From positions 962,674 through 1,026,673 of the forward strand of contig NC_018943.1 of assembly GCF_000304475.1 (NCBI RefSeq): a stretch of DNA of 64,000 nt, in the 5' to 3' direction. The translations under genes and the position numbers were made by a program. Origin of the DNA: Kazachstania africana CBS 2517. Taxonomy: Eukaryota > Ascomycota > Saccharomycetes > Saccharomycetales > Saccharomycetaceae. The notes beneath the pieces are model-generated. The model was given only the letters and a program-made list of their open reading frames with translations, was not told the origin of the DNA and did not search any database. This document shows, one piece after another, positions 3,394 through 57,773 of the stretch. The first letter of the stretch is position 1, and every line of letters begins with the position of its first letter.

Positions 3394-4734
3394 CCTCGAG
3401 GAACTAATTACAACAGCTTTTTACTGTTTGGCCTAGCCTTAAAAGAACATCATGTTAAAATTCTGCAAAATTTGATTTTTATTGTTACTTTTTCGCAGCT
3501 TACAAGATGGCCGACATTTGAGAAAAAAAATGAATAAAACCATGCTGATGATTAAGAAACTTCTTGAGGCATCATGATCCAGCAATTACTAGATTGACTT
3601 TCAGATGGCGAGCAACGTTGCATTCAACAATATCTTATACTTATATACGTTTCTGGATCATTAATGAAGCTTGTAGAGGAGTGTTTGAAAGTATAAGACA
3701 AATTGAAAGCACTGACGGTGGGGGATTCGAGAGGGTTGCTATTTCTGTTAATCAAGAAACAGAGACGTTCTTCCCATCAATTTATTCCATCATGACACTA
3801 ACTCTTCTGAATGTGCGTCGTAGGTCTTATTTTAGCTTTTCAAGTGATGGGCTGTCTGCCTTTTCAACAAAGATAGGAAAATATGGGTATGCCTGACATA
3901 TGCAAGTGAATAATCCCACGCTGCCGCCAACTTGCGTCTTACGCCTTCCGAACGTACTCAATTTTTTAATTCAATAATGTGCATAGGCGAGACATATCTC
4001 ATTCATTCTTTGCCATATATCTTGATTTACTGAAGAACTGCGATCGAAGTAGTTAGAAGCTTAAAACTAAAACTTCCGTAATAGTACCAGACTTTCAATT
4101 GCAAAAATTAATGTCCCAGAGACATTACATAATAGCTTTAATAAAGTGTATCGCGCGAACAGCCCTAGTTATGGTGATTCATGTCTGGTCCTTCCTGAAG
4201 CCTAGTCAGAATGTTAGTGCCGCAAAGAAGAAATTGCTCGGGCCAAGAAGGATTAATGCAACCTTTATTGAAGTTCTATGAAGTTAGAATCTACTAAAAT
4301 GTATGTATATTTATATATGAGTGTTCAATTTCATTCATATAAAGATCAGACACGCCTACAACAGAAATAGTATTATCATCTAGCTACGTTGTACTTGTGT
4401 AAATTGTCATTTTGCTTATTGATATAACTAAAGATAGTTTTTATTACGTCTTACAGATGTAGTTTTTCAACGGTTACAAATATATTCAATCAAGGTGAAA
4501 TACCGGCTGATAACCATCCTACTTCCATTCATAGGCTATCCTAGATATTATGATACCTGCGAATCTTGGAATCCAGTCGAAGGTTACCTTTGGGAGTAAG
4601 GGGAGATGAGGATCCCCAACGATTCTGGATATGCTTGTCGCTATTTTGGCTGCGTGAGCCCTAATGAGAGGGGGGTTAATGTATTCTGTATTGGGATGCG
4701 TAGGCAGATCTGTAGTACTACAAGATTGGGTTGT

Positions 4735-4742
4735 GTCACGTG
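4735..4742. promoter_or_regulatory. E-box GTCACGTG (distal)
   Basis: GTCACGTG matches the RTCACRTG core bound by Cbf1-type bHLH proteins. It lies about 400 bp upstream of the ATG at 5137. A second copy lies nearer the gene. Binding is inferred from the motif only. Confidence 0.4.
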
Positions 4743-4992
4743 GTTTAAAGGTCATTTATGTAATACTTAGAGGTCCATCATACAATACACTGTTGTAACA
4801 TAACCTGGAACAGTACAACATTTAGCTAGAATTCGTTTGACTGTTTTTACATATCAGGACATTTACAACAAAACCAGTACATCATTTGCTCAATTTATTA
4901 AAGTTGAGATCTCATGAGATTCGATTGAGTTCTAAGATTAGTGAAAATTTTTCATGGACGCAACTTTACCCAGTTCGAAGAATTCCCTGTAA

Positions 4993-5001
4993 GTCACGTG
5001 A
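4993..5001. promoter_or_regulatory. E-box GTCACGTGA (proximal)
   Basis: GTCACGTGA fits the Cbf1 consensus exactly. It is 136 bp before the ATG of the secreted-protein gene and about 40 bp before a TATA element, a normal upstream activating site position in yeast. Confidence 0.5.
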
Positions 5002-5042
5002 TTCTACGTGTATGATCCTCGTAGTCGATGATTACAGTCCAA

Positions 5043-5050
5043 TATATAAG
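5043..5050 (+). promoter_or_regulatory. TATA box (TATATAAG)
   Basis: TATATAAG lies 86 bp upstream of the ATG at 5137. It matches the TATAWAWR consensus and suits a regulated, TATA-dependent promoter for the secreted-protein gene. Confidence 0.55.
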
Positions 5051-5136
5051 TCGAGAACGAAGGCAATCCGTTTTTAAATCTCTCACACCAATCTATAGAT
5101 TTACATTAAGAAGAATAAAAAAATACACTAAAACAG

Positions 5137-5874
5137 ATGAGACTCTCATTAGTTAACAAATTACTGTGCAGTTCTATGCAACTGGTAGCGTTCATGTCGT
5201 TAGCGCAAGCCAACGAAGAATACCCGTATCTAAATGCCTTAGGTAGTACCAGCACTGGATGGGTGCTTCAGCCAGATCACTTTATAGAACTTGACCTGAC
5301 GAATGAAACTATCTGGCAACTATACAAGGAGGACAATGCGACTGAAGTGCCATTCACGAAGTGGTCCTTTAATGGAACACTAGTATCATCTGAACAGTTT
5401 GATATGAACGTATTTAACACGACTACCGATTTGTTTAAGCGTAGGAACGTCGATATCTGCTGGAAGAAACTGTTCACTGACTCAGTATGCACCGCTGTTA
5501 CCAATTATGCTACCGAAGCCGTTACTAACATAGCGCATGCTGTATATGTGCGGGCTCATGCCGGCACATGCGGCGTCAGCGAGGGTAGCTCAGCCGGTGT
5601 TTATTATAAATATTGGGCTTCGAGCGGACATTGTGCATCTACAGTAGAAGAGAAGACTATAGATGGCGCTGTCCAATGGGGATTTGATGAGTGGGTCACC
5701 AATGGGAGTATGTGCGCCACATATACGTTAAGTTTAAGCCATGGTGGATCTTGGTTAGGATACCTGGTTTTGGGTCCTTCAGCATCTGTATGGTTCACCA
5801 CTACGTCGGTACCCTCATCTAGTAGTTGCTATAGCAAAGGATGTGGGACTGCACACGCTTTCGACAAATGCTAG
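5137..5874 (+). CDS. Secreted Cys-rich prepro-protein, killer-toxin-like architecture, family unknown
   Basis: I do not recognise this 245-residue protein by sequence. Residues 1-25 form a signal peptide (hydrophobic core, AQA before a likely cleavage site). Residues 26-100 contain no cysteine and four N-glycosylation sequons (N56, N67, N79, N94). K101-R102 is a Kex2-type site. The remaining 143 residues hold eight cysteines (108, 118, 145, 166, 193, 231, 236, 245) and one sequon (N189). This is the layout of a propeptide followed by a disulfide-bonded secreted product, as in some yeast killer toxins and fungal secreted effectors. Toxicity is not shown. There is no GPI signal and no clear second membrane span, though 203-222 is fairly hydrophobic. 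The gene has its own E-box and TATA promoter and sits where TRA1 is missing. Its coding sequence looks more GC-rich than its neighbours, so transfer is possible. It could instead be a mating, adhesion or wall protein. Confidence 0.75.
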   Translation: MRLSLVNKLLCSSMQLVAFMSLAQANEEYPYLNALGSTSTGWVLQPDHFIELDLTNETIWQLYKEDNATEVPFTKWSFNGTLVSSEQFDMNVFNTTTDLFKRRNVDICWKKLFTDSVCTAVTNYATEAVTNIAHAVYVRAHAGTCGVSEGSSAGVYYKYWASSGHCASTVEEKTIDGAVQWGFDEWVTNGSMCATYTLSLSHGGSWLGYLVLGPSASVWFTTTSVPSSSSCYSKGCGTAHAFDKC

Positions 5875-6473
5875 GAACGCAATAGGAGCACTGCCTGCGC
5901 GATCACCAATCGTCATTGTGGGAAGGGGGGAGTTCCGTATGAAGCTGGCCTGAGGCCTGATGTTAGGAAGCAGTCTTGACGTTAGCCACGGGAGCCTAAT
6001 TCTGTCATCCTAGGTAAATGAAATGAAATGAAATATAAAATAAAATAAAAATAATATTAATATAATATAAATATAACAAGAAAAAAAAGAAGGAAAGAGA
6101 AGGGAGAGGAAAGAAGAAGAAAAGAAAAGGCGAGGGAGGACGAAGAAATAGAGAGAAATGAATAAATAGTAAAGTAAAATGAACATTAATTCAATAAAAG
6201 CGAGGACCTAGTACTCGCTTGGCCAGTGCTAGTGGTTTTCCTATTCTTTCCAACGTAAGGGAATTCTTTGTCACATTTGTTCTTAATATTGTATTTACTT
6301 TATAGCTTAATATATAAAAAAAAGATAAGCTTTTGACACGCTTTTAGCTACGGTGATACGATCAGTTCCGTCTTCGCCCTAATTGTTCCTAAATCTCAAT
6401 ATATACAAGCCGTGGTATATTCCTGTTGATCATCTATGTATCCACCATATTGAATATGGATATACATACCGAT
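5875..6473. repeat. Intergenic low-complexity block: AAATG repeat, A/T tract, 53-nt polypurine run
   Basis: After the secreted-protein gene there is about 130 bp of fairly GC-rich sequence. Then come three tandem AAATG units (6016-6030), TAAAA-type repeats, and an uninterrupted purine run at 6078-6130, with purine-rich sequence continuing to about 6180. Just before the tRNA, CCATATT and AATATGG (6445-6451 and 6453-6459) form a short inverted repeat. No gene is seen. Confidence 0.8.
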
Positions 6474-6546
6474 GCTTCAGTAGCTCAGTCGGAAGAGCGT
6501 CAGTCTCATAATCTGAAGGTCGAGAGTTCGAACCTCCCCTGGAGCA
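6474..6546 (+). tRNA. tRNA-Met(CAU), elongator
   Basis: 73 nt that nearly match S. cerevisiae elongator tRNA-Met. The acceptor arms GCTTCAG and CTGGAGC pair with one G-T, followed by discriminator A. The D-arm TAGCTCAG and the T-loop TTCGAAC (internal B box) are present. The anticodon loop CTCATAA carries CAT. There is no intron. It lies between the secreted-protein gene and GEP4. Confidence 0.97.
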
Positions 6547-6736
6547 TTTTTATACGAAGACCCACACACAAAATTTTCTTTTTTAAAGATAGCAAGTTAA
6601 ATTAACTCCATTACTCTCTCTTAATTGACTGATAGTCGTGATTTTTTCTCATTCATTAAAATCACAAGCAGGCGAACCGTCTATAACTGCAATCATTTGT
6701 GGCTCTTCGTGTAAGTTTATGGACTTTGATTGATTA

Positions 6737-7303
6737 CTAGAAGCCTAGAAAATTATACAATGATTTTTCAAATTTACTTATAGAGCTGCTTGAAGCTCGT
6801 ACTCCATCTTTGATCCAAATTCCGTAGCCTCCTAACATATTTGCCATGGAGATATCTGTCAACAATCTATCACCAATAACAGCGATTTCACTTGGACTTT
6901 TAACAATTTTATTACTGATAAAATACTTCAATATGTCATCTTTACAACCTGGTTTTTTGGTAGAATGTCTTAATACTTCAACACCTGTTCTCTTTTCTAT
7001 CAATTTCGCTTCTTCGTAATTTGGATCATCATTTGAGCCAGCAGTGTTACTCACTATTAGTACCGCTTTTCCGGGATACTGCTTCTTTAATGCTTCCCAT
7101 TTGTCCACATAAGATGGCCAGATACTGCTTTCGTTAGGGTATGATATGCAATTATCCTTGTCGACCACAACAGCCTTGATTTGATCGCTTCTTATAGGTA
7201 TTGGTAATTGATTGAAGTTAGCAATTACCATCTGTGGCTTCAGCAGATATGGATTGTATAATAATCTGAACGCATTTAATGTACCGCTAAGATTGAATGT
7301 CAT
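6737..7303 (-). CDS. GEP4: Mitochondrial phosphatidylglycerophosphatase Gep4
   Basis: A 188-residue HAD-family phosphatase. It dephosphorylates phosphatidylglycerophosphate to phosphatidylglycerol in the matrix face of the inner membrane, a step of cardiolipin synthesis. The catalytic motif is VVDKDNC with D48 and D50. SNTAGSN follows as motif II, HSTKKPGC as the lysine motif, and GDRLLTDI as the final acid motif. The C-terminus FEKSLYNFLGF is nearly identical to the S. cerevisiae end, and length is close to 185. It corresponds to YHR100C. BIG1 is the next gene upstream on the same strand. Confidence 0.96.
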   Translation of the reverse strand: MTFNLSGTLNAFRLLYNPYLLKPQMVIANFNQLPIPIRSDQIKAVVVDKDNCISYPNESSIWPSYVDKWEALKKQYPGKAVLIVSNTAGSNDDPNYEEAKLIEKRTGVEVLRHSTKKPGCKDDILKYFISNKIVKSPSEIAVIGDRLLTDISMANMLGGYGIWIKDGVRASSSSISKFEKSLYNFLGF

Positions 7304-55006: not shown

Positions 55007-57773
55007 AAGAGTTTTATAACACATATCTACTTTCTATTATTTAATATATATCCTTTTGAAAAAATATTTAGTTATTCCAAGAATTAATTGTTCCTGAGTT
55101 TTTTTTACTTACTTATGTGTCGTATTTCTAAGGTTTTATCATAGTCCTCTTGTTGCTCATCGATATTCAATTCTCAACTCAAATCATTTCTTTTATGGTC
55201 ACTTTTCTTAAAAAAAGGGAAGAATGGAAACCTAAGACAGTGACAACTTTTCAAAGTTTTTACCGTATCCTACCTCATATAACTAAGGAATATATGCACT
55301 TTTATGCTTATTTCTGACTAGTTTTGAACCTCTTAATATCCGATCCCCATATTCATCTTTGTTAGCGTGATTAATACCAGCTACCATCTGAAACTTATAA
55401 TTTCGTGTAATTGGAGCTTTGGCCTTATTTGAATTTTACATTACTCAATGAACAAAACGCTTCCTTTAGAATTGCCAACTTCATCAAACGAATATCAAAT
55501 CAAGTGTCCGCAAAGGATACTGATCACTGCATCTACTTCCGTTCAGCAGCCACTTTCCTTCTTATAGTTATACGAGTACAAGTGGCAAAACCTGCTACAA
55601 CTCTTGTCTTCTTCATTTAAAACCAAAAAGGGCAAAAAAATGAGTATCTCTCAAAAACTTTATGATGCTTTGCCTTTAGCTCGAGAAATTCGTAATACGT
55701 ATTAGTCCGTAGTTTTTGAATTCAATCACCAACCAATTGTAGATATATACTCGGCTCCTCAGCATGAATGTAGTTTTTGAACAGGATAGGTAAGGTTGTA
55801 CTGCAGGCACTTTTACTTGCTTGCGCCGACTTCCGTTTTATGGTATATTAAGAACAGCATAATTCATTCGAGCAAATTTTGTTTGTGGATACTAGTACCC
55901 TCTTGCAAAGTCAAGAATTAGGAGTCTGACATTTTTTCTATCCTTGAAGAGCCATAATAGTATCAGGAATATATAATCCTTAGACACATTCTTGAAGAAC
56001 GAGTATCATATTCGTTAAGTCAATGCCCTATAACACTACTCGTGATAACACATCTACCACCCCCTCTCGTAACAAATACTAGAATAGGAACTATAAATAC
56101 TTCTATCATGTTTGTGAATATGATGGATGTTATGATCACCATAATTTTGATCATGAGCTTTCTTGGTAGCTTGCTTCCCACAGTCATTGAGATGCTCGAA
56201 GACTGTTTGAAGTGTCAATGCAACTACTGCGTTCCAAACGCTGGTTTCCGAGCAAATTTGATTCTATTCTTAATGTAAATGTTGTAGACCAGCTAATCTA
56301 AGAAGGTGCAAGAAGCATAACTTTGAATGGAATGATGTAGTGTAGTAAGACTACTGTTCTGCTTGTCACATTAGTATCGGTAATACTACTCTTGCGGACT
56401 ATGTAAGTGAATAGCTACCCCCTTGCTCTTTGAAGGAATGATTAAACGATTGTAGAAGTTGAGGTCTTATCCTGAGAAATATTGCACATAACACGGCTTG
56501 TGCAGGTTATTCCCTTTCTGCTACCGCCCCGCCGCTTCCTATACGCAAATGAAAACCCAAAAATGGAAATATACGGTTTCTAATTTTACTGGTTTTTCAG
56601 CAGAGATAATAAAAAACAATACTATGTCATATATTCTATTCAGCAATGTTTATTCTCAAAAAAGGACGTATAATTCTTCACACAGCATACCAATAGATAG
56701 CTATCCCAGAATGCTACAAAGGGTTGATCAGACAATTTATTTGTGAATGCTAACCTAACAACGATCAAAAATAAAGCCAGTATCGCCCAAATGAGAAGTA
56801 CGATTAACGGGAAGCGGCTTTCAATCTACTAGACTGTCTGTCAAGTTTCCAAAATCTCTGTCACTTATTATTTCTATAAATATCCCCTCCATTGTCACAT
56901 CTATAAGCAGTAGTTTTCGCAATGTTTTAAGGTATTCATTGGGGTGACTGTCAATATGAAACCAGTTCCTTCAGGATTTTTTTACTTTAGCTTACATTTT
57001 TCATTCTGAGTGTTATAACATGCTTTTCTATTCCGTTGCATTGCTTGACTCATTCAGTAATGAATTAGCTGATAGTTTTTGTGTAATGAAACGTTATAGT
57101 TTCCCTAATATGCTATCAAATGCAAGGATTTCTCATACTTACGGCTATTTATATGACGAGTTACTAGATGTCTTAAAATTTGATGACTTTATCTATACCA
57201 AAATCAAATTTACATGATATATGTGACACACAACTATGTCCTGAGCAGCTTGTAATCTTTGAGACCAATATCTGAAGCGTAATTTTCGAGGCCTCAAAGA
57301 AATCCAAAAGATGTAGCATGTATTAAAATATTTCACATTAAGGCTTTGTAAATGACTATTTTGAACGGATCGTTTAGATATAGCAGTGATAGCCCCAATA
57401 AAAAAAGTGTAATACACTTTGAACCATAAGTGATGGAAGAAGAAGCATTTTCTAAATAATTACCAGCAATTAGACATCCACGTCCAGTCATCTCCGATTT
57501 CAGCACAGGGCATGGCCCAAGGGATATTTACACTCATAGAAGTATTTGGCATGACCCTAACGTTCATATTATATATCTCACCGTTGTCGATATGTAACGA
57601 GAGAGCAGATCTCCCATGTCGCCGGAAAAAAAATTTTTTGTAAAGGATGAAAAATATCAATTACAAACTGAACAAGGGGAAGGCACATAAAGAGGAACTC
57701 TTGGTGTTCTTTTCAATTGTGTCATTGAAGAAAGAATAATTGCACAACAATTTTCCATTTCTATACAAGATCA
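55007..57773. other. Gene desert
   Basis: About 2.8 kb with no recognisable gene, RNA or element. An ATG-started 65-codon frame at 57020-57217 resembles nothing known. The last 100 bp are the GTT1 promoter, with one AGGGG stress-element core at 57675-57679. Confidence 0.5.
57675..57679 (+). promoter_or_regulatory. Single STRE core AGGGG before GTT1
   Basis: AGGGG, the Msn2/Msn4 core, lies 95 bp upstream of the GTT1 ATG. A single five-base core can occur by chance; it is noted because S. cerevisiae GTT1 is stress-induced. Confidence 0.25.

Follow-up and report, generated by a model that had tools for sequence, protein, structure and literature searches.

A probable killer-toxin-type gene of Kazachstania africana lies within nested LTR-type repeats, one of ten LTR fusions in its genome

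The closest described counterparts of the gene examined here are the killer toxins Klus and KHR of Saccharomyces cerevisiae and Ksino of Candida sinolaborantium. In the available text of the respective reports, Klus displays 32% identity with YFR020W, rising to 44% in the C-terminal half (PMC5618225), YFR020W is CSS2 (PMC13211469), and Ksino, which shares 28% identity with Klus and has homologues in Kazachstania africana, kills Candida castellii when expressed by S. cerevisiae (PMC12875307). Killer satellites are described as starting with 5'-GAAAAA and carrying a central poly(A) after the open reading frame (ORF), ~220 bp long in M1L (PMC7888664, PMC5618225). PMC7888664 also describes the K1-like KKT genes of K. 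africana and other yeasts, which are chromosomal, mostly subtelomeric, display GAAAAA near the ATG and lie near tRNA genes in two species; from these leaders and the nearness of tRNA genes in species other than K. africana, capture by a retrotransposon was proposed for them in 2021 (PMC7888664). Here we describe a stretch of 64,000 nucleotides from K. africana CBS 2517 (contig NC_018943.1, positions 962,674 to 1,026,673; hereafter the window), in which an ORF encoding a predicted protein, P0001, is probably a killer-toxin-type gene, carried on a chromosome and belonging to the DUF6736 (CSS2/Klus/Ksino) group, a toxin family other than KKT. The gene sits inside a repeat resembling a long terminal repeat (LTR), itself inside an older LTR beside a tRNA gene, and is one of ten loci in this genome at which toxin-like ORFs are fused to LTR sequence.

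The 245-amino acid (aa) ORF runs from an ATG at 5137 to a TAG at 5874 on the + strand and is organized as follows:
5137..5874, strand +: ORF P0001, prepro-protein, DUF6736 (open reading frame and profile match)
5137..5211, strand +: predicted signal peptide, residues 1-25 (hydrophobicity; predicted helix 7-20)
5212..5442, strand +: propeptide, residues 26-102, cysteine-free, four sequons, KR at its end
5443..5871, strand +: predicted mature toxin-like part, residues 103-245, eight cysteines, ~15.2 kDa
5419..5781, strand +: DUF6736 domain, residues 95-215 (Pfam profile match)

This anatomy agrees with the original prediction, which had claimed a signal peptide, a cysteine-free propeptide with four sequons, and K101-R102 followed by eight cysteines. 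The putative signal peptide is indicated by an AQA site and a hydrophobic N-terminus, the propeptide sequons are N56, N67, N79 and N94, and the mature cysteines occupy positions 108, 118, 145, 166, 193, 231, 236 and 245; a fifth sequon (N189) lies within the mature part and a ninth cysteine (C11) inside the signal peptide. The only dibasic sites in the whole protein are K101-R102, R102-R103 and KK110.

The proposal that P0001 founds a new family was not borne out. Residues 95-215 match Pfam DUF6736 (PF20521; E 2.4e-24, 86.2 bits against a cut-off of 27), and Ksino-like genes of K. africana are already listed in the available text of PMC12875307. Because of this match and the relatives in the same genome (eight matches to P0001, itself included), the ORF is unlikely to have arisen by chance. 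The family profile identifies 15 places in the K. africana genome, 13 of them over the cut-off (one of these only jointly with its neighbours), and C145, C166, T169, I175, H202 and W206 are invariant in 14 DUF6736 sequences. KAFR_0G03000, KAFR_0F00115 and KAFR_0I02950 of K. africana CBS 2517 bear the UniRef name Secreted protein CSS2, and further members derive from Fusarium, Botryotinia, Aspergillus, Tetrapisispora and metagenomes, while neither "DUF6736" nor "PF20521" is mentioned in the open-licence literature searched. DUF6736 was the sole Pfam family listed for P0001 at E up to 10, with no match to KP4 or Ecp2/Hce2 and none listed to DUF5341, although weak matches may be filtered out. Longer preprotoxin-like ORFs, several of them with two KR sites, also come up with the DUF6736 profile, and 12 matches to DUF5341 (K2/KHS type) occur in this genome, 7 over the cut-off; for these reasons K. 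africana seems to hold a large toxin-like set. The closest paralogue of P0001 occurs at C7 as two protein-identical copies in an inverted duplication (L034:3867-4622 and 5232-5987), near an ORF fragment that, by eye, we take to be Ty integrase-like. A killer-like ORF remnant, 50% identical over 52 aa to the C11 DUF6736 protein, lies on the chromosome-end side of the window (57463-57618, minus strand).

The predicted fold of P0001 is an alpha-beta sandwich with two helices, the helix at 125-142 following the KR site. Fold relatives of the model are DUF26, Gnk-2, Zt-KP4 and LDL, largely those given for Klus and KHR, the likeness to Zt-KP4 being at fold level only. The comparison with Klus, KHR and Ksino was made from published descriptions, and the link between DUF6736 and these toxins passes in print via CSS2/YFR020W. 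As described in the available text, Ksino resembles P0001 in its signal peptide, KR before helix 1, eight cysteines and helix pair on a beta sheet (PMC12875307), but comprises 202 rather than 245 aa, and killing is demonstrated for Ksino only. The metagenomic protein P0008, with 202 aa, KR ahead of the first helix and cysteines 105 and 126, is close to Ksino as described (202 aa, C105-C127), although it has seven cysteines, not eight. Klus (242 aa, a length similar to that of P0001) and KHR display C-terminal-half cysteines whose spacing matches P0001 (PMC13211469, PMC5618225). In contrast with Klus, which is described as having three predicted Kex2 sites and alpha and beta chains, P0001 has no Kex2 site between the alpha and beta domains; KR102 is the only predicted cut, and the product is thus expected to be a single chain. 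Furthermore, Klus is encoded on the Mlus dsRNA (double-stranded RNA) satellite, whereas P0001 is DNA-borne. CSS2/YFR020W of S. cerevisiae shares its UniRef label with the P0001 paralogues, and no toxicity is described for it in the text consulted.

Family, anatomy, predicted fold and the available accounts of Klus and Ksino (PMC12875307, PMC13211469) support the earlier view of a killer-type secreted prepro-protein and, by analogy, P0001 is likely to kill yeasts. Since its first helix lacks clear amphipathic character, membrane attack is no better a guess than a cell-surface action of lectin-like or KP4-like kind, even though the Klus/Ksino group is thought to be membrane-active.

A DNA search of window positions 3400-7300 against the K. 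africana genome yielded 73 matches. On both sides the gene is flanked by parts of two repeats, termed LTR-A and repeat B:
4791..4986, strand +: LTR-A left half with the TGTTGTAAC terminus, belonging to the tRNA-proximal LTR; 67.5% identical to positions 1-183 of an uninterrupted copy
4987..5112, strand +: 5' part of LTR-like repeat B; 83-85% identical to the C2 and C5 loci, right border uncertain by a few bases
5113..5136, strand +: leader of the putatively captured gene, GAATAAAAAAATACACTAAAACAG, A-rich, no exact GAAAA
6016..6181, strand +: A-rich purine tract; 103 A, 36 G, 24 T and 3 C of 166
6182..6253, strand +: 3' part of LTR-like repeat B; 90% identical over 69 bp to the uninterrupted C5 copy
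6257..6454, strand +: LTR-A right half; 76.5% identical to positions 193-391 of an uninterrupted copy
6473..6547, strand +: tRNA-Met (cat), 18 bp past the LTR-A end

LTR-A, which starts with TGTTGTAAC and ends in ACAATA, is uninterrupted at many places in the genome, the matched halves lying 9 bp apart in most solo copies. Exact 5-bp duplications were seen by eye at 6 of 15 LTR-A rows (L035, L038, L039, L040, L044 and L045), and ARAGORN placed a tRNA gene in 11 of the 14 LTR-A loci L035-L048. The 18 bp between LTR-A and tRNA-Met in the window is a spacing like that of Ty3 sigma elements. Repeat B spans ~215 bp from TG to CA and contains a TATA box; in the window the TATA-like ATATATAAG, at 5042 in the 5' part, is 95 bp upstream of the P0001 ATG. 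Uninterrupted copies of B occur at C5 (L030:4297 to ~4511) and, with ~70% identity, at C7 (L034:427-622). As both parts of B and of LTR-A flank the gene and both repeats are found uninterrupted elsewhere, the gene lies in B, and B in LTR-A. Thus, of the original suggestion that the gene was inserted where TRA1 had been lost, the insertion stands, and the site found is an LTR beside tRNA-Met. The locus is neighboured by genes for a Sec23/24-type protein and a PGP phosphatase, presumably the same pair that flanks TRA1 in S. cerevisiae. A further LTR-A copy, at C2 (L029:5595-6063), carries an insertion of ~468 bp.

The window is not an isolated case. Nine further preprotoxin-like ORFs, one of them broken, begin 6-50 nucleotides (nt) after LTR-A or LTR-B, and they belong to three families not detectably related to one another. 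At C5 (L030, ATG 3005) and C2 (L029, ATG 2955) the left part of B runs into other DUF6736 ORFs, the C5 left part and the uninterrupted copy that follows the ORF being 100% identical across 142 bp. At C1, LTR-A leads into GAAAAATTTGAAGTAACG-ATG; behind this ORF come an A-rich tract and then, 16 bp from tRNA-Gly, an inverted left part of LTR-A. The plan at C3 ~1151 kb is like that of C1, beside tRNA-Ser and with ~50 nt from LTR-A to the ATG. It recurs at two more LTR-A loci of C3, near 1050 and 127 kb, whose secreted ORFs, one of them broken, form part of a second family. The loci of that family are as follows:
L067 C3:1048500-1052000; L068 C3:125500-129500; L069; L070: second-family loci, secreted, Kex2-type

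No Pfam match was found for this second family; its 19 match rows lie mainly at internal places of the genome, and several of the copies are broken. At its C8 and C5 junctions, where only the left side was read, the aligned LTR-A ends 19 and 25 nt before the ATG. The third family is represented by a 329-aa preprotoxin-like ORF with two KR sites (C2:1402196-1403182, minus strand), whose GAAAAA-ATG lies inside LTR-A (L042, C2:1401000-1404100). Its only relatives at E < 1e-10 are the subtelomeric C6:3832 and C11:23154, the latter with eight stops; in size and places the ORF is reminiscent of KKT genes.

It should be emphasized that the fused loci were found via DUF6736 or LTR-A matches, so that their share is not a random sample. 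Five of the 15 DUF6736 places are fused to an LTR, the remainder having no LTR-A or LTR-B directly before the gene, and the fetched DUF5341 loci (L051-L055, L063-L066) contained no LTR-A match. The four second-family junctions read, which had been picked for nearby LTR-A matches, were all fused; the copy at C12:89357 is not fused to the uninterrupted LTR-A that ends ~390 bp upstream of it (L039). Among 11 control copies of LTR-A picked as plain, 10 lacked a sense ORF of at least 100 aa starting inside them or up to 60 nt away; the eleventh is the copy fused to the 329-aa gene of C2. A tRNA gene adjoins the element or its LTR-A neighbour at six of the eight fused loci examined for this (the window, C1, three on C3 and C2:1402k); none was found in the 8.5 kb around C2:1301k, and on L030 (C5) the nearest is ~2 kb from the fused element.

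The B flanks of C4 (the window), C2 and C5 are 82.8-84.5% identical, whereas the ORFs show no more similarity than shuffled DNA does (five shuffles for each pair). A tree built from 18 domain sequences joins the window protein to its C7 paralogue (100/100), and a 98/98 branch separates these from the C2 and C5 proteins; the tool warns of two long end branches, the C2 protein among them. Forcing together the three LTR-B proteins (p-AU 0.00019) or the five LTR-borne DUF6736 proteins (p-AU 5.3e-6) was rejected. On these alignments and trees, the LTR-B genes had more than one origin.

Leaders and tails point to an RNA step. Among 9 fused ORFs, 6 have GAAAA in the 30 nt that precede the ATG, versus 1 of 24 other window ORFs (all 28 minus P0001 and three small overlapping or doubtful ORFs), and 4 of the 9 have GAAAAA; the tenth fused ORF, the 329-aa frame of C2, likewise has a GAAAA leader. 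The tract 141 bp past the P0001 stop is 62% A over 166 bp. The tail holds the plus-strand 150-mer of highest A content in the window (0.63 vs 0.50) and, narrowly, its most purine-biased 120-mer (0.88 vs 0.85); in the C1 tail the A content reaches 0.68.

Taken jointly, these features are, with fair probability, best explained by a killer-type toxin gene captured as complementary DNA (cDNA) into an LTR by a host retrotransposon, repeatedly in this genome. P0001 would enter the secretory pathway, be glycosylated on its propeptide and be cut by Kex2 after KR102; a single disulfide-bonded chain of ~143 residues, with a beta-alpha-beta-beta-alpha-beta-beta fold, would then be released and attack other yeasts at the cell surface. 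Secretion, the Kex2 cut and the single bonded chain are expected from the sequence together with what is established for killer toxins. The gene would have arrived as a cDNA, copied from a killer RNA (the transcript of a dsRNA satellite, or a killer mRNA) and linked to an LTR while the host retrotransposon carried out reverse transcription, candidate routes being a template switch at the LTR start site, priming in the A-tract or break repair in the LTR palindrome. The left part of LTR-B may now serve as promoter and the right part as 3' end, the whole unit lying in the older LTR-A beside tRNA-Met, and like events would have recurred in the genome with different toxin-like families.

Several observations weigh against this capture model. 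At the window junction no 5' GAAAAA was found, only GAATAAAAAAA, and the tails at C5:616k and C2:1301k are short; the RNA step is thus inferred from several loci taken together, the window by itself making a weaker case. Moreover, the flank and tree data would be matched equally well if, instead of separate captures, the ORF had been replaced inside an older cassette. It could also be argued that the LTR association arose at the DNA level, without RNA, by duplication of killer genes together with their flanks or by their insertion where LTRs had suffered double-strand breaks; LTR-B would then be the killer gene's own promoter and terminator. Consistent with this proposal, the window insertion sits at the centre of GAAGAATTCC-N9-AAGGAATTCTTC, the imperfect palindrome at the centre of LTR-A; inspection by eye of those fused elements whose ends were read, inverted pairs included, showed no exact target duplication; and for three of the four inverted pairs the left LTR-A part resembles the right one less (72-90%) than one of the two resembles solo copies, a difference larger than one event would give. 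We nevertheless regard it as rather unlikely, as ORF-free, uninterrupted B copies exist at C5 and C7, B flanks are conserved around ORFs that cannot be aligned as DNA, and the junctions coincide with GAAAA leaders, several also with A-rich tails, across toxin families, as would not be expected from a DNA-level mechanism. That an LTR retrotransposon merely landed beside an older killer gene is highly improbable: LTR-A copies are indeed common and often near tRNA genes, but at the window both halves of one LTR-A and both B parts flank the gene, indicating that the gene went into the LTRs, and 10 of the 11 control LTR-A copies lack such a sense ORF. For C8 and C5:510k, where just the left LTR part was read, a later landing is compatible with the junctions.

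Doubt attaches also to the nature of the protein. P0001 may, as a possibility that we hold to be appreciable if doubtful, be a secreted CSS2-like protein with a non-toxic role in the cell wall or in signalling, only some members of the group having become killers. The UniRef label of its relatives speaks for this, as does the fact that 75 of 84 published Ksino homologues, in the available text, are from filamentous fungi (PMC12875307). Multi-copy, strongly diverged genes that are partly subtelomeric and partly LTR-borne, however, suit toxins better than housekeeping functions, and Ksino and Klus, of similar anatomy, act on yeasts in the published tests available. It is improbable that the gene is a dead relic, open by chance; the age of the surrounding LTR-A, whose halves match a young copy at 67.5 and 76.5%, and the broken copies of related genes would suit this, but the 245-codon frame is intact, with the family cysteines, the HGGSW motif and a TATA box at normal distance.

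What seems new is the LTR setting of a probable toxin gene, with several cases in one genome; P0001 itself joins a known toxin group. Neither "LTR" nor "long terminal repeat" appears in the main text of the KKT paper (PMC7888664), and no report of killer genes inside LTRs was found in titles and abstracts of the open-licence literature on LTRs or retrotransposons and killer toxins. Derr reportedly described, in 1991, retrotransposon-made mRNA copies in yeast, the cDNA being inserted via retrotransposon reverse transcription; the K. africana loci would likewise derive from cDNA made via a retrotransposon, but at ten loci their toxin-like ORFs lie within LTRs or immediately after them, with the LTR seemingly acting as promoter.

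The passage of killer genes between cytoplasmic dsRNA and the chromosomes of yeasts is a standing question, and for KKT genes capture was proposed on indirect grounds. In K. africana the junctions are visible: LTR sequence leads into a satellite-like leader and a preprotoxin-like ORF, which at several loci has an A-rich tail behind it, before LTR sequence returns, and different toxin-like families are involved. This makes the capture route testable and would explain how a captured gene could gain a promoter at once. It is somewhat more probable than its converse that LTR retrotransposons act as a standing trap, in which the U3 promoter end of an LTR becomes joined, by reverse transcription, to the 5' ends of killer RNAs belonging to several unrelated families, the products, some with inverted U3 flanks, landing often beside tRNA genes ready to be expressed; this would constitute a general route from satellite to chromosome, represented by no fewer than ten loci. 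LTR junctions can also point to toxin-like families that have no Pfam match, two of which surfaced in the K. africana genome.
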